From positions 1 to 41,633 of IMG/VR virus record IMGVR_UViG_3300030294_000082: 41,633 bases of DNA; one strand, given 5' to 3'. Source of the stretch: a virus. The number at the start of each line of letters is the position of its first letter. Positions within the stretch are counted from its first letter, which is position 1. The notes below the pieces were generated by a model, which ran no database searches, was not told the DNA's origin, and saw only the letters and a program-made list of their open reading frames with translations. Made by a program: the position numbers and the translations under genes. This document shows positions 2,860 through 37,075 of the stretch, piece after piece.

Positions 2860-3259
2860 GACATTGAAGCACTGGACGGCAGCGGATGAGAAATACGTTC
2901 GTGATAATTTTCAAAAGAAAACGATTGATGATATCGCCCACGATCTTGGAAAAAGCAGAATGGCAGTACAATTGTTCATTCATCGCAAACGTATTACATC
3001 ATCCGGTGGAAAGGTAAAAAGAAATATCGTACAGGAAATTCTGAAGTTGAAGTTTACTCATATTGAGGACTTTCAACCAAACAGAAATTTCTATAATGAA
3101 ACCAAAATAGGCCAGCGTCGATGGTGGCAACTTTATTTTGGAGATAAACCGATAATGCAAGATGAATATCTAGCATTAACAAGATATTTCGGAATAACCT
3201 TGCAGGAGGCATTCGAGGCCCGACAACTGAACTTATTCGAGGAGGAAGGTAATGATTGA
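2849..3259 (+). CDS. Myb/SANT-like DNA-binding protein with C-terminal clamp-binding-like motif
   Basis: Residues about 8-50 (HWTAADEKYVRDNFQKKTID, then DIAHDLGKSRMAVQLFIHRK) resemble the SANT/Myb or GcrA-like HTH found in phage proteins: a W-containing first helix and a recognition helix beginning KSRMAVQ. The C-terminus carries QLNLF at 126-130, matching the QL(S/D)LF motif by which bacterial proteins bind the DNA polymerase III beta clamp. It overlaps the primase gene by eight bases. I infer a replication accessory or loader protein; the clamp link is a motif match only. Confidence 0.65.
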   Translation: MADKTLKHWTAADEKYVRDNFQKKTIDDIAHDLGKSRMAVQLFIHRKRITSSGGKVKRNIVQEILKLKFTHIEDFQPNRNFYNETKIGQRRWWQLYFGDKPIMQDEYLALTRYFGITLQEAFEARQLNLFEEEGND

Positions 3260-14092: not shown

Positions 14093-15400
14093 ATGGAAAA
14101 AATAATCGAAGTTTATAATCTTGGAGGGCTTCCAACTGCTCCACTTGATTCTTTTTTAGACCTTCAGGAAGATTTTAAAATATCTGATTCTGAAAAGTTA
14201 GCAAAATTACAAATGATAATTCTGACTCGAGGTTTCAAATATTCTTTCAAGGTATGGAAAGATTCTGAAGGTAAATTATGGATCATCGATGCTCATCAAC
14301 GTAAGAAGGCACTCATTGCGCTTCGTAAATCAGGTTTTTTAATACCTGAAATACCATACGAACCTGTACAAGCAAAAGATAAAAAAGAAGCAGTAGAAGA
14401 AATAGCTGCATATAATTCAGAATTTTCACAAAAGAACCCGGATACGATTCTTTTTCAAAAATATAAAATAGATAGTGATACGATTGATAGATTCAATCTC
14501 GGTTATGAAGTCAAAAAAATAGATTTTAATTTAGGATCCAGAGAATCTTTATTCTCAAACAAATCAGAAGAAGTTCAGGAAGATATTATTCCGGTTGATT
14601 CTTTTACTCAAGATAATATTTTTGCACAATCAGGTGATATATTTCTATTAGGAAATAATCGGATCATGTGTGGAGATTGCCGTTCATTGAAAGACGTTGA
14701 AAAATTAATGAATGGAAAATATGCAGACATGATCCTGACAGATCCACCTTATAATGTAGAATATGAAGGCGGTGGATCTGATAAACTGACTATACAGAAT
14801 GATTCAATGGATAATGATTTGTTCGCAACTTTTCTTCGACAGGTATTCTCTGTTATGTTTAAAATAATTAAGCCGGGTGGGTCTTATTATGTATTTCATG
14901 CGGATACTGAAGGGGAAAACTTCAGGAAATCTATCAGGATTGCAGGATTCAAGATTGCTCAGTGTTGCATTTGGGTAAAAAATTCGCTTGTTATGGGTAG
15001 GCAGGATTATCAATGGCAGCACGAACCTTGCCTATATGGATGGAAGCCGGGAGCTGCTCATTTCTGGAATAGCGACAGAAAACAAACGACTGTTTGGAAT
15101 TTTGATAAACCTCAATCGAATAAGATACACCCAACGATGAAACCTATAGCCCTCATGGCTTATCCTATATGTAACTCAAGTAAGGATGGCGATATCGTTG
15201 CCGACTTCTTTTCCGGTTCAGGATCCACAATAATGGCCTGCCAACAAACTGATCGTATAGGATATGCCATGGAGATTGATCCTAAATATGTAAGCGCTAG
15301 TATCAGACGCTTTATTTCTATGTTTCCGGAACAGCGTGTTCTCCTTATTAGAGACGGTAAAACATTTACAGTTGATGAAACTAAACATATAATAAAATGA
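14093..15400 (+). CDS. ParB/Srx-like domain fused to a DNA methyltransferase
   Basis: N-terminal residues about 10-115 form a ParB-like nuclease fold (DAHQRKKAL at 67-75). The C-terminal domain is an N6-adenine or N4-cytosine methylase: catalytic motif IV DPPY at 217-220, HPTMKP at 346-351, and the S-adenosylmethionine motif FSGSGST at 373-379. Motif IV before motif I marks the beta class. The ParB-methylase fusion is a common neighbour of phage terminase genes and may mark genome DNA or protect it from host restriction. No restriction enzyme gene is nearby. It overlaps the next gene by four bases. Confidence 0.88.
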   Translation: MEKIIEVYNLGGLPTAPLDSFLDLQEDFKISDSEKLAKLQMIILTRGFKYSFKVWKDSEGKLWIIDAHQRKKALIALRKSGFLIPEIPYEPVQAKDKKEAVEEIAAYNSEFSQKNPDTILFQKYKIDSDTIDRFNLGYEVKKIDFNLGSRESLFSNKSEEVQEDIIPVDSFTQDNIFAQSGDIFLLGNNRIMCGDCRSLKDVEKLMNGKYADMILTDPPYNVEYEGGGSDKLTIQNDSMDNDLFATFLRQVFSVMFKIIKPGGSYYVFHADTEGENFRKSIRIAGFKIAQCCIWVKNSLVMGRQDYQWQHEPCLYGWKPGAAHFWNSDRKQTTVWNFDKPQSNKIHPTMKPIALMAYPICNSSKDGDIVADFFSGSGSTIMACQQTDRIGYAMEIDPKYVSASIRRFISMFPEQRVLLIRDGKTFTVDETKHIIK

Positions 15401-15720: not shown

Positions 15721-16367
15721 CGAATATAGATAAGATAGATAAGATACACCCTGACCTGATATCGGCATATCTGACAACAGGTAAGTCGGATGGTATTCCG
15801 AAAGAAGTCCAGATGTTTCTATCTCAAATGCAATGGGCGGCAGAGATATATGAATTTGAAAGGAATATCAGCCGGGCAGCCAAACAATTGCGATTAAGAG
15901 TCAATGCAGAGCAACATGTAGCTATCGAAATAAGGACCTGTAAGGCCCGTATCTACGAAGCCATCAACTACTTCAGTATAGATTGCAATGTCCCTATTAA
16001 AATATGGGAGTCAAATTATGCAGATAAGTATGAGGATTTGGCAAAGATGGCTGCTGTTTGTCAGGACTACAAGACACAGAAAGCATGTTATGATGCAGCC
16101 CTTGAGTGCCACCGCCGTTCATCCGAGATTGCTGAAGCCGATCGAGATTTGGGTGTAGTATTTCTTATTTCTCCTGAACTTACTCCTGAGGATCTTGGAT
16201 ATTCAAAGAAATCCATGAAAGATATAGCAGCTAAGGCAAACGAAGGATTCTATATCAGATTGATTGATAACTTACCGATAGACTCAGACGATAAGAAGAG
16301 GCTCTTACGGGACGCTGATATCGAGGAAGCTGAGATTGTCGAAGAAATGAATAACGAAAATGACTGA
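15717..16367 (+). CDS. Candidate terminase small subunit (216 aa)
   Basis: The gene overlaps the large terminase gene by eight bases and the preceding gene by four. The protein is mainly helical (RNISRAAKQLRLRVNAEQHV; YEDLAKMAAVCQDYKTQKAC) and ends in an acidic tail (EEAEIVEEMNNEND). Size and place fit a small terminase subunit, but no diagnostic motif is visible; the 107-aa HTH-like protein before it might carry the DNA-binding role instead. Confidence 0.5.
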   Translation: MTNIDKIDKIHPDLISAYLTTGKSDGIPKEVQMFLSQMQWAAEIYEFERNISRAAKQLRLRVNAEQHVAIEIRTCKARIYEAINYFSIDCNVPIKIWESNYADKYEDLAKMAAVCQDYKTQKACYDAALECHRRSSEIAEADRDLGVVFLISPELTPEDLGYSKKSMKDIAAKANEGFYIRLIDNLPIDSDDKKRLLRDADIEEAEIVEEMNNEND

Positions 16368-18108
16368 AAATAATATAGAGAACTTTGAGCATTACTACAT
16401 GAATAATATGCAGTTGCTCGCTAATATTATAGATCCGAATATATTAATTCTTGAAGGCTCACGTGCTGTCGGTAAGACCGAAGGTATCATGGGGCCGAGA
16501 ATGATACGAGTATCAAACGATATGCCGGGTGAGTTGGGATTCCTTGTACACAAAACATACATCGCCCTGTTGTCAAACATCTGGCCTAACCTTCAGGCCT
16601 ATTTTTCAAAACCGATTATACTCAATGGCCGACAAAGGTGTATGCTTGAGTATGGGATAGATTACGTAGTTGGTGAAACTAAACTTCCATCTCATTTTCG
16701 TAAACCACGATATCCTATTTCATATCCTAAGCACAGTGTCGTATTCCGAAATGGTTTTCATCTTCAGATGGTCAGTAGTGATCAGCCAGAAAGTGTCGCC
16801 GGACGAAACGGCGTACATGCCTTTATCGAGGAAATGAAACATAACAGTGGAGATAAACTGAAATCACGTCTATTCCCATCTTTGCGTGGTTCTTCAGCTG
16901 AAATAAGACGATCCCATTATTATGAGGGAGTTACGGGTGTATCAGATACTGCCCGTGTCGACCTTGGTGAAGATGACTGGTTCGAAGATTATGAAAAGCA
17001 TGTCGACTATAAACTCATCGAAGAGATAGTAACCGTATCTCTGAAATTCAATAAATGCCTTTACCTGACATACAAGCTCGAGAATGATATTAAGACCAAT
17101 AAGAATCCTGTTGAGATAGAAGCATGCCGGCTTGAACTTGAGCGACAGAAACATTTCTTATCGCTATGGAAACCACGACTTGCAGATATGCGCCGTAACT
17201 GTACCTTCTATCTACGTGCATCCAGTTTTTGTAACAAAGAAATTCTAGGTCCGAAGTTCTTTCACACGCAGTTGAACACATTAGATATCGACGAGTTCCT
17301 TGTTGCTATCTGTGCTGTCCGGCACAAAGAGGTTACCAACAAATTCTTTGCGGCATACCTACCGTCAAAGCATACATTCTCAGATAGTTATATATACGAC
17401 GTTATAATGAAACTTGACCTGAAGGATAAGTTCATTTTAACGGCCCATTATTTGAAACATTACGCAAAACTAGAACCTATATACATGGGATATGACCCCG
17501 GTCATTTCTCTTCGTTAGTAGCCGGTCAATTTGCAGACAACGATATGCGTTTCAATATCATCAAGACGTTCCATTGCTATTACCCGGCAGCACAGCCGGA
17601 ACTTGCGAAACAAGTCTTTGAGTTCTTTGGTGCCGATGCCGTTAACAAAAGAATAGTCTTATATCCTGACCGTGCCGGAAACAAAAGAAAAGAAGAACTT
17701 GAGCAGATAACAACAGATTCCCGTTCACTCAAGCGTGAACTAGAATCATTTGGTTTTGAAGTAGAACTTCATAACGAGGGGCAAGAGGTTATTTATTATT
17801 GGCAGCAGTTCAAATTATTGTTACTGTTGTTCATGGAGAAAAGCAATTTCCTTCCCCGGATAAGAATTGACGAGAACGAGTGCAAAGACTTGTGCAGTGC
17901 GATATTGATATCACCACTCAAGAAAACAGAAGGGAAAATAGAACTGGATAAGAGTTCAGAAAAGAAAGAAGCACTCAAACACCAGGCAGCATTAACAACA
18001 CAGTTACCATCTGCGCTCATCTATCTTTTGTACGGTCTGTTTTCTGAACGCGCATCTGATATGCTGTCAAATATGCCGGACGATTTGCCCGACAACTTTT
18101 CGGCATAA
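16360..18108 (+). CDS. terL: Terminase large subunit (packaging ATPase-nuclease)
   Basis: The motor domain has Walker A GSRAVGKT (33-40) and a Walker B-like AFIEEMK (154-160). The nuclease domain shows GYDPGHFSSLV with D379 and VLYPDRAGNKR with D437, the metal-binding acidic residues of the RNase H-like fold. At 582 aa it has the usual length. It drives DNA translocation into the prohead and cuts the concatemer. It ends the packaging operon; a small inverted repeat (18133-18138 with 18145-18150) follows without a T-run. Confidence 0.88.
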   Translation: MTENNIENFEHYYMNNMQLLANIIDPNILILEGSRAVGKTEGIMGPRMIRVSNDMPGELGFLVHKTYIALLSNIWPNLQAYFSKPIILNGRQRCMLEYGIDYVVGETKLPSHFRKPRYPISYPKHSVVFRNGFHLQMVSSDQPESVAGRNGVHAFIEEMKHNSGDKLKSRLFPSLRGSSAEIRRSHYYEGVTGVSDTARVDLGEDDWFEDYEKHVDYKLIEEIVTVSLKFNKCLYLTYKLENDIKTNKNPVEIEACRLELERQKHFLSLWKPRLADMRRNCTFYLRASSFCNKEILGPKFFHTQLNTLDIDEFLVAICAVRHKEVTNKFFAAYLPSKHTFSDSYIYDVIMKLDLKDKFILTAHYLKHYAKLEPIYMGYDPGHFSSLVAGQFADNDMRFNIIKTFHCYYPAAQPELAKQVFEFFGADAVNKRIVLYPDRAGNKRKEELEQITTDSRSLKRELESFGFEVELHNEGQEVIYYWQQFKLLLLLFMEKSNFLPRIRIDENECKDLCSAILISPLKKTEGKIELDKSSEKKEALKHQAALTTQLPSALIYLLYGLFSERASDMLSNMPDDLPDNFSA

Positions 18109-18414: not shown

Positions 18415-18726
18415 ATGGAAATTGAGATGACAGGCATCAGCGCAATGCAATGGGCTCGAGAGATAAGCAAACTTCCCGATGGATACTTCAGCATCGGATT
18501 CTTTCCTTATTCAAGGCAGAAGGAAATGGCATCCGATAAAATGGAGATCAAGGAGCACTGCAAATACCGAACTCAGTTGCCCCATGAAAGGTTCGGTGTT
18601 GATTCAGAGAATTACTTTCTATTCACCGATGGAAATGGAGACCCGAAGATGTGCTATCGTATATTGATACGTTACATGGGGTTTCCTCAAGACGGATATA
18701 AACTACATAAAATAAAATGGTTATGA
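18415..18726 (+). CDS. Hypothetical protein at the head of the portal operon (103 aa)
   Basis: The core (MQWAREISKLPDGYFSIGFF; YFLFTDGNGDPKMCYRILIR) is compact and hydrophilic with no membrane segment. The frame allows starts at 18409 (TTG), 18415 and 18427; because the -7 element ends at 18411, the ATG at 18427 fits best with a short leader, and 18415 would be nearly leaderless. It overlaps the portal gene by four bases (ATGA). Function unknown; virion assembly is likely from position. Confidence 0.6.
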   Translation: MEIEMTGISAMQWAREISKLPDGYFSIGFFPYSRQKEMASDKMEIKEHCKYRTQLPHERFGVDSENYFLFTDGNGDPKMCYRILIRYMGFPQDGYKLHKIKWL

Positions 18727-20192
18727 AAGATAAGATTCAGATGTATGGCAATCATGGATGTTACATCACCGATGGTGATGTGATATCCTTTCAGATAGGA
18801 TCAGAATCCCTCTCTATTGATCCGGGATTTGAATTGCCATCCTTAAACCTTCAGAGAATTCATGAGGACAGATGGTTAAACCTACAGGGATATCAGATAT
18901 GTTGCAGAGGTATGAACAATACCCTTTGTGATGAAGTGGCATTGAACATCAAACAGAACCGACTCCTCCCCTCTCTTATCCGTAAGCAGATAGGAATGCT
19001 GTATGGTCGTGGTCCGGCTATCTATCAGCAGACAGTTGTCAATGGTAAACTTACACGCTCATTCATCGATGAACCAATCATTCAATCCTGGTTGGAAGCA
19101 TGGCAGGATAATGGGTGTGAAGTAGATTATAAGACATTTGCTTACGCAAACATCAAGAACTACTATTTCTTCAAAGACTTCTTCGTTAAGTGGCGCTTCG
19201 CTAAAGGTAAGAATATGGGTATGTATTCTGTTGCAGGACTCGAGACGCTTGAGAATAGTGCATGCCGTCTTGCAACAACCAGGACTGACGTGGCGTATAA
19301 CCTCGTATATTATGCAGATTTCAGATTCATTGCCTTAGGCAAGTGGTACCGAGGTATATCCCCATCTATCAAGATATACCCAAAGTTCAATCTTTCAGAG
19401 GTAAAGGGTTATCGTTATGCTGCCATCTCTCATCATCGAGAGAAGAGCGTTGACGAGTTCTATGGTGTTAACGAAACACACCAGGGCACGAAACCTTATA
19501 TAGTAGGCAGCAACCAGACCGCAGGATATATCAATTCATTCTTGAGAAATAGTCTTGCGGCAAAGATACACATCGTCATTCCGAACGCGTGGGTAGAGTC
19601 GAAACGCAAACAGATTACAAATCTGTGTGTAGAGAATAAAACCCGTCAAAAAAAGCAGGATACGCTGCTTAAATATAATGGAATAGATATCGGTACGGAA
19701 TATAAGGAATCGATATTAATTCAATACATGCAGTCTGAATTGCGCAAGATAGGATCATATCTTTCAGGTGAAGGAAATCAGGGAAAGGCGTATGCAACGA
19801 CCTCCTTCAATTCATCATCCGGAGACGAACAGAGATGGAAGATAGAAACAGTCGATTTGAAATATAAAGAGTATATTGAAGCCCTTATTGCGTATGATAA
19901 ACGTGCCGATGAAGTTCTATTGTCTTCCGTCGGCCTTGACTCATCCATCAGCTCCGTAAGCAAAGATGGAGTTATATCGAAGAGTGGCGCAGACAGTTAT
20001 TACAACTATCTTATATACCTGATGTCACTAACCCCTGAAGATGAGATATGCTGCGAACCATTTAATTTAGCGATTAAGGTCAATTTCCCAGATTTGTATA
20101 ATGCAGGATATCGCATCGGATTCTATCGCGAATTACCCTCACGACAGGAAGATGTTGCACCAAACGACAGACTTAACCAACAACAGCCATGA
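18723..20192 (+). CDS. Phage portal protein
   Basis: The 489-aa protein sits just after the terminase block and before connector-like genes. The order of segments (RKQIGMLYGRGPAIYQQT near residue 90; helical stem region; YKEYIEALIAYDKRADEVLL; GLDSSISSVSKDGVISKSGA near 410-430) matches portal proteins, in which a long stem helix is followed by the clip/crown region. It would form the dodecameric DNA gate of the capsid. The start at 18723 (ATGA overlap) is preferred to 18717. Confidence 0.72.
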   Translation: MKDKIQMYGNHGCYITDGDVISFQIGSESLSIDPGFELPSLNLQRIHEDRWLNLQGYQICCRGMNNTLCDEVALNIKQNRLLPSLIRKQIGMLYGRGPAIYQQTVVNGKLTRSFIDEPIIQSWLEAWQDNGCEVDYKTFAYANIKNYYFFKDFFVKWRFAKGKNMGMYSVAGLETLENSACRLATTRTDVAYNLVYYADFRFIALGKWYRGISPSIKIYPKFNLSEVKGYRYAAISHHREKSVDEFYGVNETHQGTKPYIVGSNQTAGYINSFLRNSLAAKIHIVIPNAWVESKRKQITNLCVENKTRQKKQDTLLKYNGIDIGTEYKESILIQYMQSELRKIGSYLSGEGNQGKAYATTSFNSSSGDEQRWKIETVDLKYKEYIEALIAYDKRADEVLLSSVGLDSSISSVSKDGVISKSGADSYYNYLIYLMSLTPEDEICCEPFNLAIKVNFPDLYNAGYRIGFYRELPSRQEDVAPNDRLNQQQP

Positions 20193-22630: not shown

Positions 22631-22870
22631 ATGAATATAGACATAATGAGCTTCATACCATATATCATCACTGTTGTTATTTCAATAGTTGGTGCATATT
22701 TCGCACAGCAAAAAGATCTTGCTCTTGCGAAACAGCGCATCGAGCAACTTGAAAAGAGAACGGATTCTCACAGTCAGAAAATAGATGAAATACTTAGTGG
22801 TGTCAATGATATCAAAAATAGTTTGTCCGAAATAACAACAGAACTTAAGCATAAGGAGGATAAAAAATGA
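22631..22870 (+). CDS. XhlA-like small membrane protein of the lysis cassette
   Basis: Residues about 6-25 (MSFIPYIITVVISIVGAYFA) form one membrane segment; the rest is a coiled coil (AKQRIEQLEKRTDSHSQKID). This is the layout of haemolysin XhlA or holin-accessory proteins, though in XhlA the membrane segment is usually C-terminal, so the topology here is reversed. It overlaps the endopeptidase by four bases. Confidence 0.6.
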   Translation: MNIDIMSFIPYIITVVISIVGAYFAQQKDLALAKQRIEQLEKRTDSHSQKIDEILSGVNDIKNSLSEITTELKHKEDKK

Positions 22871-23325
22871 AATATTTCACAATGACAGAGATGTACGGCA
22901 GCGCAACGGCAAAGGCGAAGGGTATAGACAACACGCCAGGGACGCAGGTGAGAGAAAACCTCGCTGCACTGGTGGAGAATGTGCTTGATCCATTGCGGGC
23001 AGCATACAAAAAACCCATCAAGGTGAACTGTGGGTACCGGTGCCCGGGACTGAACAAAGCCGTGGGCGGAGTGGCTACCTCGCAACATCTGACAGGACAG
23101 GCGGCTGACATCACGGGAGGAAGTGCAGAGGAGAATAAGAAGCTATTTAATCTGATCCTGATGCTATTACCTTTTGATCAGGTGATCTACGAATTCGGGG
23201 GTCAGTGGGTGCATGTATCTTATTCTACTCGCAACAGACACCAAGCTCTTATGTCATATAAACAAAATGGAGTAACTAAATATGCAAAATATGCTGAAAA
23301 CAATAATAGCCAAGTGGCGAAGTGA
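22867..23325 (+). CDS. Endolysin, peptidase M15A family
   Basis: The zinc ligands are visible in SQHLTGQAADI (H74, D81) and QWVHVSY (H116), the SxHxxGxAxD...WxH signature of M15A D-Ala-D-Ala-type endopeptidases. At 152 aa it is a single-domain enzyme without a cell-wall binding domain or signal peptide, so it needs the holin for release and would cut peptidoglycan cross-links in the periplasm. The first about 260 bases are visibly richer in G and C than the neighbours, suggesting exchange with another phage. Its 3' end overlaps the holin gene. Confidence 0.85.
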   Translation: MKYFTMTEMYGSATAKAKGIDNTPGTQVRENLAALVENVLDPLRAAYKKPIKVNCGYRCPGLNKAVGGVATSQHLTGQAADITGGSAEENKKLFNLILMLLPFDQVIYEFGGQWVHVSYSTRNRHQALMSYKQNGVTKYAKYAENNNSQVAK

Positions 23326-23551
23326 GACACCTCTCGCAGCACGAATAGTGCGAAATACAGCAGCTACAATAGCAGCTGCATTACCTACTGCATATATAAC
23401 TGTCACAGGTATGGGTATAACGCTACCTGAGACATGGCAATACATCATAGGAGGTGTTACATTAGCCTCTGTCCTGATAACCGGAATCGCAGGAACTAAG
23501 GAGACTAATAACGCAAAAGCAAATAGACAAAATACTGACTTAAAAAATTAA
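23282..23551 (+). CDS. Putative holin, two membrane segments (89 aa)
   Basis: Two hydrophobic stretches, about residues 26-44 (NTAATIAAALPTAYITVTG) and 53-69 (YIIGGVTLASVLITGIA), are separated by a short turn and followed by a polar tail. Size, hydrophobicity and position after the endopeptidase fit a small class II holin. Starts at 23282 and 23291 are both possible; both overlap the endopeptidase gene. Confidence 0.65.
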   Translation: MQNMLKTIIAKWRSETPLAARIVRNTAATIAAALPTAYITVTGMGITLPETWQYIIGGVTLASVLITGIAGTKETNNAKANRQNTDLKN

Positions 23552-23555
23552 AATT

Positions 23556-23771
23556 ATGCCAAAAGATTATTTAGAGAGAATGAAATCTGAAGAAACTGAA
23601 CTTTCTTCAAAGTTAGAAAAAATAGAGAATTTTTTCCATACGGAAACCTATGAAGGTTTGTCTAAGCAAAAACAAAACTTATTGTGCGCTCAATATGGAG
23701 CCATGATAGCATATCAAAGAATACTTTTTGAACGAATCAGAGTAGAAAATGAAATAACCCCTGCATCATGA
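23556..23771 (+). CDS. Acb2/Tad1 hairpin-domain-like protein: candidate cyclic-nucleotide sponge (anti-CBASS)
   Basis: The 71-aa helical protein has the pattern YLERMKSEETELSSKLEKIE, F at the turn, GLSKQKQNLL, then QYGAMIAYQRILFERIR. This matches the helical-hairpin family (crAss001_48-related, Acb2/Tad1 hairpin) whose phage T4 and PaMx33-type members bind cyclic di- and trinucleotides and block CBASS and Thoeris signalling. It lies between holin and spanin genes and overlaps the next gene by four bases. The family call is from sequence pattern; binding activity is inference, and many relatives are untested. Confidence 0.6.
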   Translation: MPKDYLERMKSEETELSSKLEKIENFFHTETYEGLSKQKQNLLCAQYGAMIAYQRILFERIRVENEITPAS

Positions 23772-24370
23772 AATTAAAAATCATCCTTATCTCAATAGCG
23801 GTATTAGTAGTTTTAGTTGGAAGTCTCGTGTGGTCGTTGTCGGCTTTGCAGAAATGCAGAAAAGACAACGATCGTCTCGAGACAAACCAGACGGCTCTAA
23901 TGTCCGGAGTAACTCAGTACAAGACTTCTTCCGGAAAATGGGCTGCTAAAGCAACTGCCCTTACTCTCACGGCTTCTGAATTTAAGAATAGTAATGATTC
24001 CCTTTTGTCTGTCATCAAAGAACTTGGCATAAAGGCAAAGAGAACATTAGAAGCTTCTCAGACGGCTTCATCTACGGATATCCCCCTTCAGTTGCATGCT
24101 AAAGATAGTATTGTCTACGTAAATGGGCATACAGACACACTCAAGTGTATGGAATACCACGATCTCTGGACAGATTTCTCTGGATGCCTCCAGAAAAGCA
24201 ACTTTACAGGATACATACAGAATCGTGATACCCTCTACCATATCCTCCATAACATACCGAAGCATTTTTTATTCTTTAGGTTTGGAAGTAAATCGATACA
24301 GCTGGATGTTGTATCTTCAAACCCGCATACCAAAATCGTTTATACAAAAATAATTCGTTTAAGTAAATAA
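23768..24370 (+). CDS. Spanin-like membrane-anchored protein (200 aa)
   Basis: Residues about 4-26 (KIILISIAVLVVLVGSLVWS) are one N-terminal membrane anchor, followed by a helical stretch (LQKCRKDNDRLETNQTALMS) and a beta-rich C-terminal part. This is the topology of inner-membrane spanins, which link to the outer membrane in the last lysis step. It resembles the DUF6549 proteins of Bacteroidales lysis cassettes. No outer-membrane lipoprotein partner is evident, so it could be a u-spanin-like variant or not a spanin. The csf operon starts 14 bases after its stop with no terminator. Confidence 0.5.
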   Translation: MKLKIILISIAVLVVLVGSLVWSLSALQKCRKDNDRLETNQTALMSGVTQYKTSSGKWAAKATALTLTASEFKNSNDSLLSVIKELGIKAKRTLEASQTASSTDIPLQLHAKDSIVYVNGHTDTLKCMEYHDLWTDFSGCLQKSNFTGYIQNRDTLYHILHNIPKHFLFFRFGSKSIQLDVVSSNPHTKIVYTKIIRLSK

Positions 24371-24384
24371 TCACGTAATTAAAA

Positions 24385-25071
24385 ATGAATGTATGTGAAA
24401 AGATATATGCCATAGGCGGGGAAGGGAAACGCTATGGTGAAGAGAAGGGGGTGTGTCGGATAACCGGGAAGGAGAGTACCGGTGTAGAATTCGACAAATG
24501 GGTAAAAGATACTTTTAATGATCGGGACAGGCTGTATCCTGGCACGATCATTTCTAATGAGGCGATGTTCTGCTTTGACGAAGCATCGGAGATTGTGCAA
24601 AGAAAAACGGGAAGAGATAAGCCCCAGAGATTCCGTACTTACTCGCACATTATTAAGAATGGTGAGTGGTTCTGTCTTACAAAGGCGGATAAGAGAAAGA
24701 TATTTGAACTTATCACAGAGGGTGCTGAGATGGTATGCTTGACAGAGACAGGGCAGAAACACATACTGTTTAAACATATGGATGGGATGTGGCAACTCGA
24801 TGAGTTGCATGTTACTCCAGATATTGAGCTGCTCAAAAACTTACATGAATGTATGTGCGGACTTCTTAACCTTCAGTTCTCGCAGACAGAAGTGATCACT
24901 GGGAATTACAGTCCAGGACGGATTATGAAAGCGGGACTTAAGAACTGGATGGCTTTAGAAAGAGAGATAAGGGAATATCGAGGTAGAGAGATATTCGACT
25001 TTGCCTCATTTATGCTTTATTCTGATAAACAGGAGACGGACGGACCTGTAAGCAATCCGGACGATAAATGA
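24385..25071 (+). CDS. csf1: Csf1-like large subunit (Cas8-like), type IV-B CRISPR-Cas
   Basis: The 228-aa protein follows the Csf1 order: an N-terminal segment with C24 (GVCRITGKES), then WVKDTFNDRDRLYPGT and ISNEAMFCFDEA, then KPQRFRTYSHIIKNGEWFCL and TKADKRKIFELI, and a helical C-terminus (GRIMKAGLKNWMALEREIRE). In other Csf1 proteins two CxxC pairs bind zinc in the first 80 residues; here only C24 and C63 remain, so the zinc ribbon is degenerate or lost. In the complex, Csf1 caps the 5' end of the RNA. It is the first gene of the operon and continues the lysis transcript. The family call rests on several matching blocks plus the csf2, cysH and csf3 neighbours. Confidence 0.8.
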   Translation: MNVCEKIYAIGGEGKRYGEEKGVCRITGKESTGVEFDKWVKDTFNDRDRLYPGTIISNEAMFCFDEASEIVQRKTGRDKPQRFRTYSHIIKNGEWFCLTKADKRKIFELITEGAEMVCLTETGQKHILFKHMDGMWQLDELHVTPDIELLKNLHECMCGLLNLQFSQTEVITGNYSPGRIMKAGLKNWMALEREIREYRGREIFDFASFMLYSDKQETDGPVSNPDDK

Positions 25072-25078
25072 TAAATCT

Positions 25079-25432
25079 ATGGAAATAAATCAAGAGACAG
25101 TCGCGGAGAAACTCCTTTGGGGACTCTGGCGCAGTATTACGGAGGATTACAAAATGCAGTATCCTCGTGTGATATGGGAACAATTTGAGAATGCTATACG
25201 GTCTGCGAGTTATACAGACTCGTTGAAAGTATTCCTTACAAACTTTCAGCGTCGTATTCCTGTAGAAATACAGGCACAATATGGACGTGACATCCTCGCT
25301 ATTGTTGATTCAGGCGAAGATGAACAAGTGCTGAACTGGCTGAGAAGTGAAAGCACTTACCTCACCATGATCGTGAGACTGAAAAACCAAGAAAGGAAAG
25401 AAAATATAAAATTTGAAAGGGGAGAAATATGA
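25079..25432 (+). CDS. cas11: Small subunit (Cas11-like) of the type IV-B complex
   Basis: A 117-aa, probably all-helical protein (AEKLLWGLWRSITEDYKMQY; RVIWEQFENAIRSASYTDSL) between csf1 and csf2, which is where type IV-B loci encode a separate small subunit. It starts seven bases after csf1 and overlaps csf2 by four. The C-terminal tail is very charged (RLKNQERKENIKFERGE). Cas11 proteins share little sequence, so the call is from size, helical content and position. Confidence 0.65.
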   Translation: MEINQETVAEKLLWGLWRSITEDYKMQYPRVIWEQFENAIRSASYTDSLKVFLTNFQRRIPVEIQAQYGRDILAIVDSGEDEQVLNWLRSESTYLTMIVRLKNQERKENIKFERGEI

Positions 25433-26337
25433 AGACATACGTATTAGAAGGAGTGTGTACCGCCTTGAGCAGCATCTGCCATAATGGTGGTGAGAAAAAT
25501 GGTACTATCGTGCAACTTCGCAGAGAGAAGTTTGTACAAGAAAACGGAAAAATCGTAGAGGTACCGGTGATATCCGGTAACAGTATCAGGGGCAAGCTCA
25601 GAGACCTAGCAGCTATCGAGATACTGACAAAAAAGGATGGTGTAAAAGTGCAGGTAGATGCGGATAGCTTCAATCTGTTATTCTCCGGTGGATCACTTGA
25701 GAGTACCGGTGGAAAGAACCTAGATATCGAAAAGGTGAGACAGTTGAGAAAAGAAATTCCGATGATCAGCGTACTTGGCTGTTCAATTGGAAATGTAATT
25801 CTTCCGGGAAAAGTAAGTATCGGGAAGATGATCCCAATCTGTAAAGAGACGTTGCACCTTATTCCATCCCAGTTTCATGGGGATGATGAAATAAAATCCA
25901 TCTGGTCATACTGTCAAGTGGAAATGAACACCAGACGGGATGATACGAAGGATGAGAATAAACGAGAGTTTATCAAGCAGGAGCATCTGACGGATGACCT
26001 GAAGGGAGGTCAGATGATGTATAACACAGAAACGCTGGCAGCAGGTACCAGGTTCTACTGGAAAGTTTGCCTGATGGATACAACAGACATCGAGACCGGT
26101 GCTTTCCTTTCTACGATCCAATCATGGGCGAACCAGGCAAGCCAGGTTGGTGGTAATGGACGTGTTGGTATGGGCCATCTTAAAATAGATTTGTCTCATA
26201 CTACCGTAGTGGACTCAGAAGTGGAGTTTAACAACTCAGATTTTGTAAAGTATATCGATGCTGCAAATGAGGCAAAGAAGGATGTAACAGAATTCTTTGA
26301 AACAGGAGGCTCGAAAAAGCTCTTTGTAAATGGATAA
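25429..26337 (+). CDS. csf2: Csf2-like backbone subunit (Cas7 family, RAMP)
   Basis: A RAMP-superfamily backbone protein of 302 aa. It has VPVISGNSIRGKLRD (45-59), the loop common to Cas7, Csm3 and Csf2, and the late glycine-rich loop GGNGRVGMGHLKI (241-253). A thumb-like region follows the pattern TRRDDTKDENKRE, then GGQMMYNTETLAAGTRFYWK, as in Csf2. Several copies would polymerise along guide RNA. It overlaps both the small subunit and cysH genes. No catalytic Asp of the Csm3 type is evident, as expected for type IV. Confidence 0.85.
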   Translation: MKTYVLEGVCTALSSICHNGGEKNGTIVQLRREKFVQENGKIVEVPVISGNSIRGKLRDLAAIEILTKKDGVKVQVDADSFNLLFSGGSLESTGGKNLDIEKVRQLRKEIPMISVLGCSIGNVILPGKVSIGKMIPICKETLHLIPSQFHGDDEIKSIWSYCQVEMNTRRDDTKDENKREFIKQEHLTDDLKGGQMMYNTETLAAGTRFYWKVCLMDTTDIETGAFLSTIQSWANQASQVGGNGRVGMGHLKIDLSHTTVVDSEVEFNNSDFVKYIDAANEAKKDVTEFFETGGSKKLFVNG

Positions 26338-26986
26338 AAAAACAGCCTTGCTATACGCAAGGCTGAAACAGTATAAAGCCCTTGTTAACAAAACGAGTGG
26401 CTTTATAAGGTGGGCGTTAGCACAGGTTAATAATCCATACGTGGCATGCTCTTTCGGAAAAGACTCGAGCGTTATGCTTGACTTGATACTGAAACATAAG
26501 AAAGATGTTCGAGTTCTTTTTGCAACATCTACAGAGACATTTATAATTGATAATTATGAGGATGTTATCCGTCAGTGGGGTAAACTGAATCTTGAAATAC
26601 TTCATTGCGAAAGGGAAAGTGACGGACGAACTCATACAAGCGATAAGATGAGTTGTTATTATGACTATGATAGTTATTTTGTAGGAATCAGAGCAGAGGA
26701 GAGTTCGGCCAGAAGGATGTCTTTGAAATTTCAGGGAATGTTCTATAAAAAGAAAAATGGTAAAATACGCATTTCTCCTCTTGCAGAATGGACGGATAAG
26801 GATATTATTACTTATATCTTGAGTAATGATTTGCCGTTGCTAGACACCTACAAAGTATTTACAGAGAAAGCAAGGACAACATCTGTTGTTCCGACAGTCG
26901 GAAGAGAGAGAATGCTTTCAATGCTTCAGAAAAGAGACATTAATGCCTTTAACAAAGTTAAGGAAATATTAAAAGACGAATTATGA
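26330..26986 (+). CDS. cysH: CysH-like (PAPS reductase family) protein of the type IV-B locus
   Basis: An adenine-nucleotide alpha-hydrolase (PP-loop ATPase) fold: the P-loop is CSFGKDSSVML (40-50), the second conserved block FVGIRAEESSARR (117-129), and PLAEWTDKDI (150-159) closes it, as in PAPS reductases. The C-terminal cysteine needed for reduction in true CysH enzymes (ECGLH motif) is absent; the end reads TTSVVPTVGRERMLSMLQKR. A cysH-like gene is the hallmark accessory of type IV-B loci; its role there is unknown. Eight-base overlap with csf2 and four-base overlap with csf3 show that it is translated as part of the complex's operon. Confidence 0.85.
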   Translation: MDKKTALLYARLKQYKALVNKTSGFIRWALAQVNNPYVACSFGKDSSVMLDLILKHKKDVRVLFATSTETFIIDNYEDVIRQWGKLNLEILHCERESDGRTHTSDKMSCYYDYDSYFVGIRAEESSARRMSLKFQGMFYKKKNGKIRISPLAEWTDKDIITYILSNDLPLLDTYKVFTEKARTTSVVPTVGRERMLSMLQKRDINAFNKVKEILKDEL

Positions 26987-27639
26987 AATATACAAATCTA
27001 AGGATACGGGCATATCTGAGTACGGGAGTGATCAGCGATCAGTATCTCCCACTCGATGCTGTGTTATACTATCATCTTGTGCGCAGGGAGATGCCGGAGC
27101 AGGTTATTACGAAAAGTCGGGAAAGTAATGTGAGGGCCGGTGCAAATATTAATGTTCCTATTTTGAAATCAGGGCCTAAAAATGAGTTGTGGTTTTACGC
27201 ATGCTCATTCGCACAATTCCCGGATGTTGTGGCAGAAGATTCTAGTTTTAAAGTAAAGACAGGAGACTGGTTGCGTCATGAGGAACACTTCGATGCAAAG
27301 AAGAAAATAGACATTCAGCGTGGAAAGTTCAAGAATGCCCATTTGAAACTGTATTACCGTCACTGTCCGTATATAGACTGGTATTGCGTCGGGAATGCCA
27401 AAGAGATAGCAGAGTTGCTACAGTTCTGCACCCATATTGGAAAAAACTCTGGTGACGGATGGGGTCAGGTTCTCAGGTGGGAAATCAAAGACTGGCCAGA
27501 GGATTGGAGCATCAGAGGCTATGGAAATAAGCTGATGAGAGCAGTCCCTCTTCGTCAAGATGGAAGGGGTTATAGCTATGGCCTTCGACCAAGTTATTGG
27601 AATCCTAGACATATCGCAATCTGCAAAATGCCTGATTAA
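26983..27639 (+). CDS. csf3: Csf3-like Cas5 subunit of the type IV-B complex
   Basis: The 218-aa protein has a Cas5-type RAMP N-terminus (LRIRAYLSTGVISDQYLPLD, then AVLYYHLVRREM), a central glycine-rich motif GKNSGDGWGQVLRWEI, and a C-terminal block MRAVPLRQDGRGYSYGLRPS with YWNPRHIAIC, which matches the Csf3 ending with RPxYWxP. It would cap the guide RNA's 5' handle with Csf1. It is the last gene of the operon. No csf4 (DinG helicase), cas6, cas1 or cas2 follows. Confidence 0.83.
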   Translation: MKYTNLRIRAYLSTGVISDQYLPLDAVLYYHLVRREMPEQVITKSRESNVRAGANINVPILKSGPKNELWFYACSFAQFPDVVAEDSSFKVKTGDWLRHEEHFDAKKKIDIQRGKFKNAHLKLYYRHCPYIDWYCVGNAKEIAELLQFCTHIGKNSGDGWGQVLRWEIKDWPEDWSIRGYGNKLMRAVPLRQDGRGYSYGLRPSYWNPRHIAICKMPD

Positions 27640-27715
27640 TCAAGGTGTTCTTAACCGCATAGCAGAGGCATTAGATTGCAATATTGAATTAAAAAAGAGA
27701 AGCAGGAAACATTAA
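27578..27715 (+). CDS. Possible small HTH-remnant ORF overlapping csf3 (45 aa)
   Basis: In another frame than csf3, an ATG at 27578, eight bases after GGAAGGGG, opens 45 codons ending in the terminator stem. The end, GVLNRIAEALDCNIELKKRS, resembles the last helix of XRE-type antitoxin or repressor proteins. It may be the remnant of such a gene lost when the csf operon arrived, or chance. The overlap of 62 bases with csf3 argues against normal expression. Confidence 0.3.
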   Translation: MAFDQVIGILDISQSAKCLINQGVLNRIAEALDCNIELKKRSRKH

Positions 27716-27732
27716 ATCCTGCTTCTCTTTTT
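27692..27732 (+). terminator. Strong terminator of the csf operon
   Basis: Perfect 16-bp inverted repeat (27692-27707 with 27717-27732, loop of nine) ending in five T residues; A-rich on the left, so it can act in both directions. It marks the end of the transcript that starts at the 22578 promoter. Confidence 0.9.
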
Positions 27733-27840
27733 ATATTATACATATTTTATTCACAATTCCTATAATATAATATATAAAGAAAAATTACTACTTGATATAA
27801 ATCAAGAAGTTGTAATATTCTTAAAATAATCATGTAAATG

Positions 27841-29303: not shown

Positions 29304-29423
29304 CTTTTTTGTCGAAAGATTTGTGCTGAAAGTTACAGCAATCCTTGCCCAACTTCTTTAGCTTATATTTAGTGATCCTTTATTTATGCTCCGATCATCT
29401 GAAAGCATTAATCTTTTCATTTT

Positions 29424-29479
29424 CCCCTACAGGGGAAAAGATGTGCCCCTATAGGGGAAAACATCTGCCCCTACAGGGG
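29424..29479. repeat. Three 12-bp palindromes at exact 22-bp period
   Basis: CCCCTACAGGGG (29424-29435), CCCCTATAGGGG (29446-29457) and CCCCTACAGGGG (29468-29479), with near-identical AAAAnATnTG spacers of 10 bp. Twenty-two bp is about two helical turns, so dimers would line up on one face of the DNA: an operator array or the site of a multimeric DNA-binding protein. The region 29150-29687 has no gene. Confidence 0.65.
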
Positions 29480-29565
29480 GAATATAAAATAGGTATGATT
29501 CCGGAGGTCAATAGGTAGTTATTCGTATCTATTTAAGCAACATAATGTTGATATATACTCATAAA

Positions 29566-32712: not shown

Positions 32713-33126
32713 ATGATAACAGAAGATCTCATTCGACAGCAATTCATTCATGAAACCGTCAGCGCAGGCTTGAAGAAAATATTTCAAACCCAGCAACAGG
32801 TCGTTACGGAGAATTATCAGGTAATAACAGGTAGTTTATTATCACATCTTGTGTCGATGCCTTTTGATGCCTCATTCACCGGGGTAGATCATATCTATTA
32901 CGTTAGAATATTGCCATATCTCAGATTCTTAGATATGGCATATCGGTTACGAAATGATCGCGTGGCAAAGGCAAAGAGGGCTAAGATAGCCGTCTATAAC
33001 CGTGTTGTCTGGGGTGTACTGTATCATGAGACATTCCCTCAAATAATGTATGGACTTAATGACGAAATACGCAACGGAATAAGAAAGGAACTAGAATCAT
33101 CACTTAATCAAAAAGACAATGGGTAA
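32713..33126 (+). CDS. Hypothetical protein upstream of the tape measure (137 aa)
   Basis: The frame is open from 32677, but the -7 element at 32683-32690 would lie inside; the ATG at 32713 is 22 bases downstream of it and is preferred. The protein is helical and basic in the middle (YRLRNDRVAKAKRAKIAVYN). It overlaps the tape measure gene by eight bases. Position suggests a tail-assembly partner. Confidence 0.6.
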   Translation: MITEDLIRQQFIHETVSAGLKKIFQTQQQVVTENYQVITGSLLSHLVSMPFDASFTGVDHIYYVRILPYLRFLDMAYRLRNDRVAKAKRAKIAVYNRVVWGVLYHETFPQIMYGLNDEIRNGIRKELESSLNQKDNG

Positions 33127-36100
33127 ACATTTATCTGAGGACGAAATAAAATACGTCATCTCAGCCAGCACCTCAAAGGCACAACAGGAACTCCATGAAC
33201 TACAGAAGTCGACTAATCTTTTGAAAAAGGAAGAGAAAGACCGCCGCACGCAAATGATAGAAATGGAGGCGGAAGGCAAGAAAAATACAAAAGAGTATCA
33301 GAATCTTGCCGCTGAATGTAAAAGTTATACTTCGCAGATATCGGATAATACTAAGAAGATGAATGAGATGCGTAGTAAGATGGATATTAATGTACTGACA
33401 ATGAATCAGCTGAAAAAGGAAGCTAGCCAGCTGCGTTCTGCACTCAACGGCACGTCGAAGGCAACAAATCCACAGGAGTATGCAAAGCTTGAGTCACAAC
33501 TGCATAAGGTGACAGGCCGGATGGCTGAACTGAATTCTAACGCAAAATCATTTAGTGATATCGCACAATCTGATATCACTTCAGGTGTATTTCTTGGGAA
33601 TATATTCTCGAAGATAGCAGATAAGATAGGCGAGGCTATTGCCAGCTTTAAAGAGTTTGTTGCCGGTGGCGTTGAAATGGCAGAGTCTGCCGATGGTGTT
33701 ACTCGAGCATTTAATAGGATGAACCAGCCGGGACTGCTGGATAATCTACGTAAGGCGACAAAGAATACTGTAAATGACGTTGCGCTGATGACGGCTGCCG
33801 TGAAAGCGAAGGACTTTAGAATTCCATTGCAGGACTTAGGTAAATATCTTGCATTTGCACAGCTGAAAGCCCAACAAACAGGACAGAGCGTGGACTACAT
33901 GACTGACAGTATCGTTACCGGTCTTGGACGTCAGTCTCCTTTAATCCTTGACAACTTGGGTATCTCAGCAGCAGAGATTGGAGAAAAGACAAAAGAGACA
34001 GGAGATTTCATGAAGGCCGTGGCTTCAATCGTTGAGAATCAGCTGGCTGCTGCCGGAGAAACCTATATCTCTGCTGCTGACCGTGCAACGCAGCGAACTG
34101 TGAAATTACAGAATCAGCAAAAGGAAATGGGGGATGCAATGCTTCCAATCGCAGAAAAATGGTCCGATGCCTTCGGAGAGATGGAAATAAGCACAGTCAA
34201 GCTAATAACATGGATGGTGGAGCACAAGAAAACTACATTGTTACTGTCGATGGCTATCACAGGACTTGCTATTGCGATGAAGGCAGGTAACATGCAGCTC
34301 AAGGAGTTTATTGCAAATACTATTTTAGCAAAGACAGTTACAGGGGCATGGAGCACGATGATGACTACATTCAGAGGTATTTCTTTACTATTTGCAAGCG
34401 CTATTGCCACATTACAGGGTAATACCTTAAGAGCTTCAGCTGCTATGAGATTATTTAATAATACTTGCAAGACGAATATCTATATCTTGGCCACGACAGC
34501 AATCCTTGCCCTTGCCGGAGCTTTCGTTTATTATTTATCAAAATTACAACCGGCATTTGACTTATCCGAGCAAATGAAAACTACTTTTGATAATATTCGA
34601 AAGGTAAGTGAAAATACAAGGAAAATACTCCAGGACGATATGACGGATATTTCAAAGTCTACAAACAGCACAGTGGCAGAATCTACTGCGAGATATAAAA
34701 TGCTCACTAAGATTATCAATGATAATACGGAGACGGTGGATAAACGAAGGAAAGCCCTTGATGAAATCAAAAAGGTTGCTCCGGCGTATCATGCTCAGAT
34801 AACGACTGAAGGCAAACTTATTAAAAATAATACTGATGCGCTGACAACTTATTTGTCTAAATTAAAGGAAACAGCAATTGCTCAAGCTATTTTGGCAAAG
34901 AAAACGTCTATCGAACAATCTGAGATGAATAATCAACTAGATAAAGAATCTAAAAAAGGTAATCTAAGATATGTAACTCAGCAGGCGGCAACCATGGGCG
35001 TTAATCTGAATACACAAAAAGTAGTTAAAGTTGAAACTCCTGATAAGTATGGAGCTCAATATGGCCATGCAACTGATACTTCATACAAGGTCGTGGATAA
35101 AGCTACAGGAAAGGTTGTTAAAGGAATGGAGAATATCTCCATGAGATTAGTGAAATTACAGGATATATATGATTACCGTATCACCGGAATGCAAGAAAAT
35201 GATGCTGTTACACGTCAGAATAATCAGCGTAATTCACAAATTGATAATTATGCGAAATCTAAAAATATAGATTTGACAAAGACTTCGACAGACAAATCAA
35301 ACTCTTCATCACCAGGAAAGACAACGGGATCAGACAAAGTAGGTTCAGAACAGAAGGCTTCATTTGCTAATCAGCGCAAAGAGGAATTAGCGCAGGAGCA
35401 GAAGACATACGAAGAGAGTCTACAACTTCAGAAGGATAATCTTGCAAAGAAAAAAATAACAGAGGATGAATATAATTCCCAGTTATTAGGATTATCTGCG
35501 CAGCATACTTCGTCTGTCTTAACGATAGAGCAGAAGTATACGGATAAGTCTGAGCAACTGAAGATTAAAGACGGAAATGCAAAGAAAAGAATCATACTTG
35601 AGCAACAGGCGAATGAAAATAAGGCTTCGAACGATTATAATGATGCACAGATACAATTACGCCAGCAGTTCTATGATGCGTTGGATAAGATGGAATCAGA
35701 GGGGATGACATCATCGCAGCTTCAGGAAAAAGAATATAAATCAAAACTTGCAGCTCTTGAAGTGACTTATAAGACTTCTTTGTCTTACGCGAAAGAAAAT
35801 GGAGAGAATGAGAAAGCTGTTACTGCTGCTTATGAGAGAAATAAGGAAAAAATAACGCTTGATTATACGCAAAAGACTGAACAGGAAAGATTTCAGATAA
35901 GGCAGCAATATGGGCTTACTACTCAACAGGAGCTTCTTGATCAGGAATTAGCTCAACTTAAGCAGCATCTGAACGATGGAAGTATGTCTCAAAAGGAATA
36001 TGAACAGGAAGTGCTTAATACAAAAGATAAGTATGAGCAGGAAAAACAGCAGATAAGGCAACAATACGGGCTTACGAATCAACAGGATGAATATGACATG

Positions 36101-37075
36101 CAACTTGTACAGCTTAAACAGGCCCTTAAATCACAGAAACTTACTCAAGAAGAATATGAAAAGGCTGTTCAGAATTTGAAGAGAGATTCGTACAAGAAAC
36201 AGTTTGATTATTACAGCAATCTTTTTTCTGGAGCAGTGTCTTCACTCCAGCAAGCTGAGATAGATCAAGTTGATGCGGAATATGACGTAAAACTCGAGGC
36301 TGCAAAGAATAATAGTGAAGAGACTACCAAACTTGAGAATGAGAAAGCACAGAAGGAATTGGATATTAAAAAGAAATATGCAGATGCAAACTTCTATGTA
36401 AAGGCTTCCCAGATTGTGGCTGATACGGCTACGGCTATTATGCAGGGCTATGCAGACCTTGGTCCTATCGGAGGATCAGTTGCCGCTGTTCTGATGGCTG
36501 CGACTGGAGCAGCACAACTAGCTTCCGCTAATGCAGAACGTGAAAAAGTGAAGAATATGACACTTGCAGGATCTTCTACATCTTCTACTGTCAGCCGTGT
36601 TGCTGTCGGCCTTGAAGATGGTGGTAATATCGACGTTGTCCGTGAGCAGGACGGAAAGGTATTCAAAAGTTCTGATTACGACCCGATGAAGCGGGGGTAT
36701 GTAGATCACCCAACTGTGATAGTAGGTGAGGGCACAACGGGACATTCTAAGGAGTGGATTGCCAGTAATGCCGCTGTCGAGAATCCTACTGTTTCTCCAT
36801 TTCTCAAATTATTAGACTCTCATCAGCAGGCCGGGGATATCCGGACGTTTGATTTCACGAAATATATCAAGGCTCAGGGATATGAAAAAGGTGGGTCTGT
36901 AAGTACGACAACGAAGATGTATCCTACATCGAGTGACAACACTCTGCTGATGCAAAAGATGATGGTACTCCTACAGCAGCTGCACGATGAAGGTATTCCG
37001 GCATCGGTGGCACTGACAGATATCGACCGTGCTCAGCAGCTGAGGGATAAATCACGCAAAATTGGTTCAAAATGA
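33119..37075 (+). CDS. Tail tape measure protein
   Basis: At 1318 aa it is the second longest protein. The N-terminus is a coiled coil (LHELQKSTNLLKKEEKDRRT); two hydrophobic segments lie near 370-390 and 445-465 (IYILATTAILALAGAFVYYL). A long Gln/Glu/Lys-rich part holds at least two 52-residue repeats, each with QIRQQYGL (926 and 978). The Gly/Ala-rich end (IVADTATAIMQGYADLGPIG, then GSVAAVLMAATGAAQLASA) is typical of tape measures from Bacteroidales phages. It sets the tail length and suggests a long flexible tail. Four-base overlap with the next gene. Confidence 0.88.
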   Translation: MGKHLSEDEIKYVISASTSKAQQELHELQKSTNLLKKEEKDRRTQMIEMEAEGKKNTKEYQNLAAECKSYTSQISDNTKKMNEMRSKMDINVLTMNQLKKEASQLRSALNGTSKATNPQEYAKLESQLHKVTGRMAELNSNAKSFSDIAQSDITSGVFLGNIFSKIADKIGEAIASFKEFVAGGVEMAESADGVTRAFNRMNQPGLLDNLRKATKNTVNDVALMTAAVKAKDFRIPLQDLGKYLAFAQLKAQQTGQSVDYMTDSIVTGLGRQSPLILDNLGISAAEIGEKTKETGDFMKAVASIVENQLAAAGETYISAADRATQRTVKLQNQQKEMGDAMLPIAEKWSDAFGEMEISTVKLITWMVEHKKTTLLLSMAITGLAIAMKAGNMQLKEFIANTILAKTVTGAWSTMMTTFRGISLLFASAIATLQGNTLRASAAMRLFNNTCKTNIYILATTAILALAGAFVYYLSKLQPAFDLSEQMKTTFDNIRKVSENTRKILQDDMTDISKSTNSTVAESTARYKMLTKIINDNTETVDKRRKALDEIKKVAPAYHAQITTEGKLIKNNTDALTTYLSKLKETAIAQAILAKKTSIEQSEMNNQLDKESKKGNLRYVTQQAATMGVNLNTQKVVKVETPDKYGAQYGHATDTSYKVVDKATGKVVKGMENISMRLVKLQDIYDYRITGMQENDAVTRQNNQRNSQIDNYAKSKNIDLTKTSTDKSNSSSPGKTTGSDKVGSEQKASFANQRKEELAQEQKTYEESLQLQKDNLAKKKITEDEYNSQLLGLSAQHTSSVLTIEQKYTDKSEQLKIKDGNAKKRIILEQQANENKASNDYNDAQIQLRQQFYDALDKMESEGMTSSQLQEKEYKSKLAALEVTYKTSLSYAKENGENEKAVTAAYERNKEKITLDYTQKTEQERFQIRQQYGLTTQQELLDQELAQLKQHLNDGSMSQKEYEQEVLNTKDKYEQEKQQIRQQYGLTNQQDEYDMQLVQLKQALKSQKLTQEEYEKAVQNLKRDSYKKQFDYYSNLFSGAVSSLQQAEIDQVDAEYDVKLEAAKNNSEETTKLENEKAQKELDIKKKYADANFYVKASQIVADTATAIMQGYADLGPIGGSVAAVLMAATGAAQLASANAEREKVKNMTLAGSSTSSTVSRVAVGLEDGGNIDVVREQDGKVFKSSDYDPMKRGYVDHPTVIVGEGTTGHSKEWIASNAAVENPTVSPFLKLLDSHQQAGDIRTFDFTKYIKAQGYEKGGSVSTTTKMYPTSSDNTLLMQKMMVLLQQLHDEGIPASVALTDIDRAQQLRDKSRKIGSK

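Follow-up and report, generated by a model that had tools for sequence, protein, structure and literature searches.

What does a type IV-B CRISPR-Cas operon do for a phage that carries it? The question is raised by a viral contig of 41,633 nucleotides (nt) (IMG/VR record IMGVR_UViG_3300030294_000082; hereafter the window, meaning the whole stretch), in which five open reading frames on the plus strand (24385-27639) encode Csf proteins and a CysH-like enzyme. As the initial annotation described, they are adjacent and tightly packed, each overlapping its neighbor or lying 7 nt from it. What that annotation overlooked is that the cysH position is exchangeable, being filled in several relatives by other modification-type enzymes. 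The five genes are as follows.

24385..25071, plus strand: csf1, large subunit (Cas8-like), 228 amino acids; PADLOC typeIV_Cas8, 8.5e-10
25079..25432, plus strand: cas11, small subunit, 117 amino acids; PADLOC typeIV_Cas11, 1e-21
25429..26337, plus strand: csf2 (Cas7), 302 amino acids; PADLOC typeIV_Cas7, 4.7e-67
26330..26986, plus strand: cysH-like PP-loop enzyme, the exchangeable effector position, 218 amino acids; PAPS_reduct, 4.9e-17
26983..27639, plus strand: csf3 (Cas5), 218 amino acids; PADLOC typeIV_Cas5, 2.6e-46

The proposed identities withstood a profile check: type IV models are the top PADLOC match for all four Csf/Cas proteins (Csf1, Cas11, Csf2, Csf3), and the CysH-like protein matches PAPS_reduct. 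Among the PADLOC RAMP models, Csf2 is much closer to Csf2_0_IV (4.7e-67) than to the best other RAMP family, Csm3 (8.7e-08), and its PDB matches include 7jhy Csf2 and 11fs Cas7c (both 9.6e-19). The NCBIfam matches to cas7_csf2 (7.8e-26) and cas5_csf3 (2.9e-16) both fall under the curated cut-offs, as expected of a divergent member. Gene absences apply to the record as it stands, a linear virus contig that is possibly partial; within its 41,633 bp, searches found no Cas1, Cas6 or DinG-type helicase (PF13307), and repeat scans no CRISPR array or array-like repeats, in keeping with the suggested IV-B gene set without csf4/DinG, cas6, adaptation genes and array. By profiles and gene content, the locus is assigned to type IV-B as a new member. 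All five genes show purifying selection against the relative L004 (pN/pS 0.14-0.40), tightest in csf2 and csf3 and most relaxed in cysH, and csf1 is kept in 12 relatives at 45-74% identity.

Eight viral-contig scans, one genome-contig scan and two genome searches yielded 48 distinct loci with a readable enzyme position, the majority on viral contigs (L019-L021, L025 and L088-L090 are on contigs of genomes or metagenome-assembled genomes, and a phage portal gene lies near L020). Across the 48 loci the Csf core is conserved. Canonical CysH is missing in nine of them, and each of these has a modification-type enzyme of another kind.

L007, L014, L018, L019, L065: S-adenosylmethionine (SAM) methyltransferase of 154-171 amino acids replaces CysH (5 loci)
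L020, L046: TGT-like and glycosyltransferase-like proteins replace CysH (2 loci)
L033: IbrA (PAPS+DUF3440) and a ParB_N protein replace CysH (1 locus)
L103: radical-SAM protein (PF04055, 6.3e-8) replaces CysH (1 locus)

Other loci combine enzymes: IbrA, IbrB and CysH stand together in the L006 slot, CysH joins a phosphatase-like protein and a SpoU RNA methylase in that of L045, and in haloarchaeal plasmids the Csf core is paired with DUF3440 and ParB genes. L031 was rejected as a CysH-less locus since CysH is present in another frame (2.8e-42); at L031:9050-11444 a divergent CysH precedes a cupin-like frame and two csf3-like copies. Gene content comprises a conserved ribonucleoprotein (RNP) core and an obligatory, interchangeable modification-type enzyme.

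The replacement is local, at the cysH gene. Loci with approximately 80% identical Csf2 differ in their enzyme, having one CysH (CysH-a) in the window and L004, another (CysH-b) in L003, IbrAB with CysH in L006 and the methyltransferase in L014 and L019. The window shares DNA homology with L003 and L019 up to ~26330-26340, the csf2/cysH junction, and again from 26988, in csf3. At the same junction lies a nine-pair hairpin (26343-26365), with a run of T after it on the minus strand; it might be the sign of an exchange point or an antisense terminator. CysH alleles themselves appear shuffled relative to the phylogeny of the Csf core: the L003 protein shares 68% identity with that of the distant L008 and 28% with that of the window, and the CysH and core topologies are mutually rejected (approximately unbiased test, p 2e-110 and 1e-7). 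Parsimony counts six changes of enzyme class, where shuffled labels average 6.8; the labels hold little tree signal, and we take the count only as consistent with frequent exchange.

Could this position be just an insertion hotspot, with CysH, methyltransferase and TGT-like genes being ordinary phage morons independent of Csf? Such genes are common in phages, and a homolog of the slot methyltransferase, as well as IbrA-type proteins, do occur without csf. Against this, slot genes of the window clade overlap or abut csf2 and csf3, a slot enzyme is present in 48/48 loci, and there is no enrichment of modification enzymes among flanking genes up to three positions away. As a control, a Pfam scan covered 127 flanking genes, up to three per side of 28 loci. 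Of the 25 families found most often, N6_N4_Mtase (3 members) was the sole one of modification type, and PAPS_reduct was not among them; the other 37 families had at most one member each. The operon's enzyme position is thus unlike its surroundings, and a pure hotspot seems very unlikely. The position is exchanged, with a bias to modification-type families.

The slot enzymes differ in how clearly they can be placed. The PP-loop SxGK[DQ]S is kept in 28/28 aligned PAPS-type proteins, in the window as SFGKDS at residues 41-46, and the CysH cysteine motif (ECG) was found in none of these 28; nor did sequence alignment find the catalytic C-terminal ECGxH in the window protein, which also matches the PADLOC BrxP model (5.3e-13). 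A kept PP-loop without the cysteine motif agrees with the proposal that CasCysH is an ATP pyrophosphatase-type modifier (PMC8175902). The slot methyltransferase (L019 and relatives), with its conserved motif I VDMYAGEG, is well supported by its structure model as having a class I SAM methyltransferase fold: the model (predicted local distance difference test, pLDDT, 89) finds class I SAM methyltransferases including fibrillarin and TYW2 in a Foldseek search of the PDB (E ~1e-7), and sequence profiles match PH0793/TYW2 (2e-4) and the rRNA methyltransferase 1yub (3e-3). In phages without csf, a homolog also adjoins a ParB_N-like protein at L069:2603-3280 and lies upstream of a terminase-like gene. 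The TGT-like proteins carry the motifs DSGAF, HNLGAGW and GFDSIDS, and a structure search gave weak TIM-barrel matches only. The SpoU RNA methylase of L045 scores above the Pfam cut-off (1.4e-8). Since slot families are both RNA-modifying (SpoU, TYW2/Erm-like) and DNA-linked (BrxP/Dnd-like, ParB-associated), the choice between RNA and DNA as substrate is left undecided.

In this context, we put forward that an RNA-bound Csf complex delivers or licenses an interchangeable nucleic-acid-modification enzyme, a reading to which we give about an even chance (probability roughly 0.5). By analogy with the solved IV-B complex (PMC7937560), Csf1, Cas11, Csf2 and Csf3 would assemble an RNA-bound filament. 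The Csf2-Cas11 filament on RNA would position a nucleic acid for the slot enzyme, the RNP most likely selecting or presenting the RNA or DNA to be modified, and the fifth gene would supply the exchangeable enzyme, in the window a CysH homolog resembling PP-loop ATP pyrophosphatases. The Csf2 loop, HNGGEKNG in the window clade and HRDDYTS in Mycobacterium sp. JS623, may be compatible with a non-cleaving complex. The phage might thereby label its own nucleic acid as self, or disable transcripts of host or competitor. Taylor et al. guessed that CysH modifies RNP-bound nucleic acid. More tentatively, type IV-B as a whole is possibly an RNA-guided or RNP-positioned modification machine, a CRISPR-derived analog of guide-RNA modification RNPs in which phages swap one enzyme gene; the chemistries would be those of PP-loop enzymes, SAM methyltransferases, base exchange plus glycosylation, and radical SAM. 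We infer complex assembly, enzyme-RNP coupling, substrate and benefit to the phage alike.

Several points weigh against the delivery of an exchangeable modification enzyme. Most loci (39/48) simply have a CysH-like protein, and the slot methyltransferase has a homolog in phages lacking csf genes. The TGT-like proteins of L020 and L046 match phrog_887 weakly (7e-4, 7e-3), with a profile comparison at E 0.06 and a poor model (pLDDT 48), and the glycosyltransferase-like assignment comes from a single weak match (phrog_7922, 5e-5) in one of two orthologs. On neither side of the operon did eight relatives show a conserved non-coding sequence or a conserved guide RNA. Adjacent genes are no proof that enzyme and RNP are physically coupled, and the only purified IV-B RNP bound heterogeneous RNA with no sequence preference and was not assayed with CysH (PMC7937560). 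That complex also lends itself to another view, already proposed in the literature (PMC7937560, PMC8175902), in which the Csf filament is an RNA sponge or anti-guide: by coating small RNAs, be they crRNAs of the host or other guides, it would protect the phage from RNA-guided defence, the enzyme being accessory. Its assembly on heterogeneous RNA and the lack of an array in our record would suit such a role, which nevertheless leaves unexplained why a modification-type enzyme is constantly present and replaced rather than lost; moreover, the published RNP was not enriched in crRNA (PMC7937560). We regard a sponge as unlikely. Where the initial annotation had considered plain RNA capture as a function, the pattern of enzyme exchange suggests nucleic-acid modification instead, and not cutting.

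The carrier and the operon's place in it bear on when such a complex would act. Similarities of the terminase (16360-18108; 61-69% identity) and portal (18717-20192; 51-63%) to Porphyromonas gingivalis and human-gut phages, and of the primase (3252-7256) to relatives at 33-61%, identify the carrier, by sequence, as a Bacteroidota tailed phage akin to those of P. gingivalis, and so bear out the phage origin first suggested. A scan for the Bacteroidota -33/-7 promoter was rejected as host evidence, with 7 matches against 7.2 expected. Elsewhere the phage encodes a DNA methyltransferase (14093-15400; phrog_498, 1.1e-111) with a ParB-like match (phrog_1033, 2.7e-4). Also as first described, the operon lies between lysis and tail genes.

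22867..24370, plus strand: lysis genes, directly upstream of the operon
22867-23325, plus strand: M15 endolysin (phrog_894, 1.5e-36; Peptidase_M15_3, 1.4e-18)
23282-23551, plus strand: holin-like gene, by position and sequence only
23556-23771, plus strand: lysis-block gene between the holin-like and spanin-like genes
23768-24370, plus strand: spanin-like gene, by position and sequence only
27687..27737, no strand assigned: inverted repeat after csf3, with 21-nt arms (90% complementary), a 9-nt loop and a T-rich 3' arm
33119-37075: tape measure (tail genes)

The csf1 start is 14 nt past the last lysis gene, too short a gap for a separate promoter, so the operon would be co-transcribed late with the lysis genes. 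The inverted repeat at 27687..27737 is probably the end of this transcription unit, and the terminator scan did not list it. Farther on, a 570-bp non-coding stretch holds a 22-nt unit repeated three times in tandem (29418-29482) that carries the palindrome CCCCTACAGGGG and is perhaps an operator. The gut relative MT835559 has the spanin-like homolog and no csf genes. In L002, the lysis and csf block aligns with the window at 97.4% DNA identity over 22660-26922 while the region upstream is unalignable, which indicates that this block moves between phages.

Such putative late expression bears on a third possibility, namely that the operon serves interference between phages or between phage and plasmid, with guides from host arrays or small RNAs silencing competitors and the slot enzyme standing in for DinG. 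Type IV-A represses transcription in a guided, nuclease-independent manner, and prophage type IV systems have been suggested to act in inter-element conflict (PMC11656645). Cas6-like genes, which would fit this role, adjoin cysH in the phage IV-B loci L035:8975-9622 and L094:8678-9355. However, neither the window nor the surroundings of the operon in the six relatives checked (L030, L033, L035, L045, L046 and L047) yielded an array, a check aimed at loci with Cas6-like or unusual genes, and a late position within the putative lysis transcription unit would poorly fit superinfection exclusion. We consider interference quite unlikely. A cassette-encoded guide RNA was likewise rejected, given the flanks of the eight relatives and the lack of an Rfam match in the window.

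Is the locus, then, a new viral branch of type IV, as was first supposed? It does belong to a distinct clade of mostly Bacteroidota viral loci; viral IV-B itself has been reported before (PMC10848311), and Skermania phage SPI1 carries it unannotated. Gene order, first noted as differing from loci where cysH comes first, varies a great deal among loci and defines no branch: the enzyme position is the csf2-csf3 interval in the window clade, and many outgroup loci have it downstream of csf3. A type IV Csf2 is rare among sampled Bacteroidota genomes (3/393 and 3/395, both counts including the center genome and the former also one previously known carrier). Individual loci depart further: L065:7887-9513 is degenerate, with csf1 truncated, cas11 and csf2 lost, and the slot methyltransferase and csf3 retained, and at L045:4675-5487 an HNH/Vsr/NUMOD3-like gene, likely a homing-type endonuclease, is inserted between cas11 and csf2.

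Among known systems, the IV-B locus of the Mycobacterium sp. JS623 megaplasmid (PDB 7jhy; PMC7937560) shares csf1, cas11, csf2 (homologous in sequence) and csf3 and likewise has no array or Cas6, whereas the window locus is phage-borne, holds cysH within the operon in the csf2-csf3 interval and has relatives that swap it. Type IV is known in prophages (PMC11656645) and in prophages and lytic phages, and IV-B in Bathyarchaeia viruses (PMC10848311). Of the latter, the Fuxivirus locus is also virus-borne with a CysH-like gene; unlike the window, it belongs to an archaeal virus, has a mini-array and has cysH beside csf3 at the operon end, with no enzyme exchange reported. SPI1 (L073; KR011061, Orf40-44) is an isolated tailed phage whose Csf2/Csf3 operon stands, as in the window, close to the lysis genes, shortly before them; it is actinobacterial, its Csf2 is 36% identical, and its genes are annotated as hypothetical (Csf2 and Csf3 are identified by profile, the others by position). 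IbrA/IbrB, BrxP of type IV BREX and DndC of Dnd share the PP-loop PAPS_reduct fold with the window CysH, and in L033, L006 and archaeal plasmids pairs resembling IbrA/IbrB occupy the slot or add to it; the systems of these enzymes have no Csf RNP and act in DNA modification or regulation. C/D-box RNPs offer a works-like analogy only, in that an RNA-protein complex is combined with a SAM methyltransferase, fibrillarin, which the slot methyltransferase model resembles; their parts are non-homologous to the Csf RNP, and guided modification is not part of the likeness.

The ancillary CysH-like protein has been termed strictly conserved (PMC8175902). In the searchable literature, subscription papers being outside its scope, we found no IV-B loci in which cysH is replaced by a methyltransferase, a TGT-like or a radical-SAM gene, and the novelty of this exchange is provisional. 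As IV-B in viruses was already known, the new part is comparative, a conserved Csf core with an exchangeable CysH position. Methyltransferase members should be easier to approach experimentally, since a labelled-SAM assay is possible with them, unlike with CysH. Papers on type IV-B treat its function, and that of its CysH-like protein, as still to be settled (PMC8175902, PMC7937560, PMC11656645), and the exchange of CysH in phage relatives provides independent evolutionary evidence that the activity belongs to the class of nucleic-acid modification.

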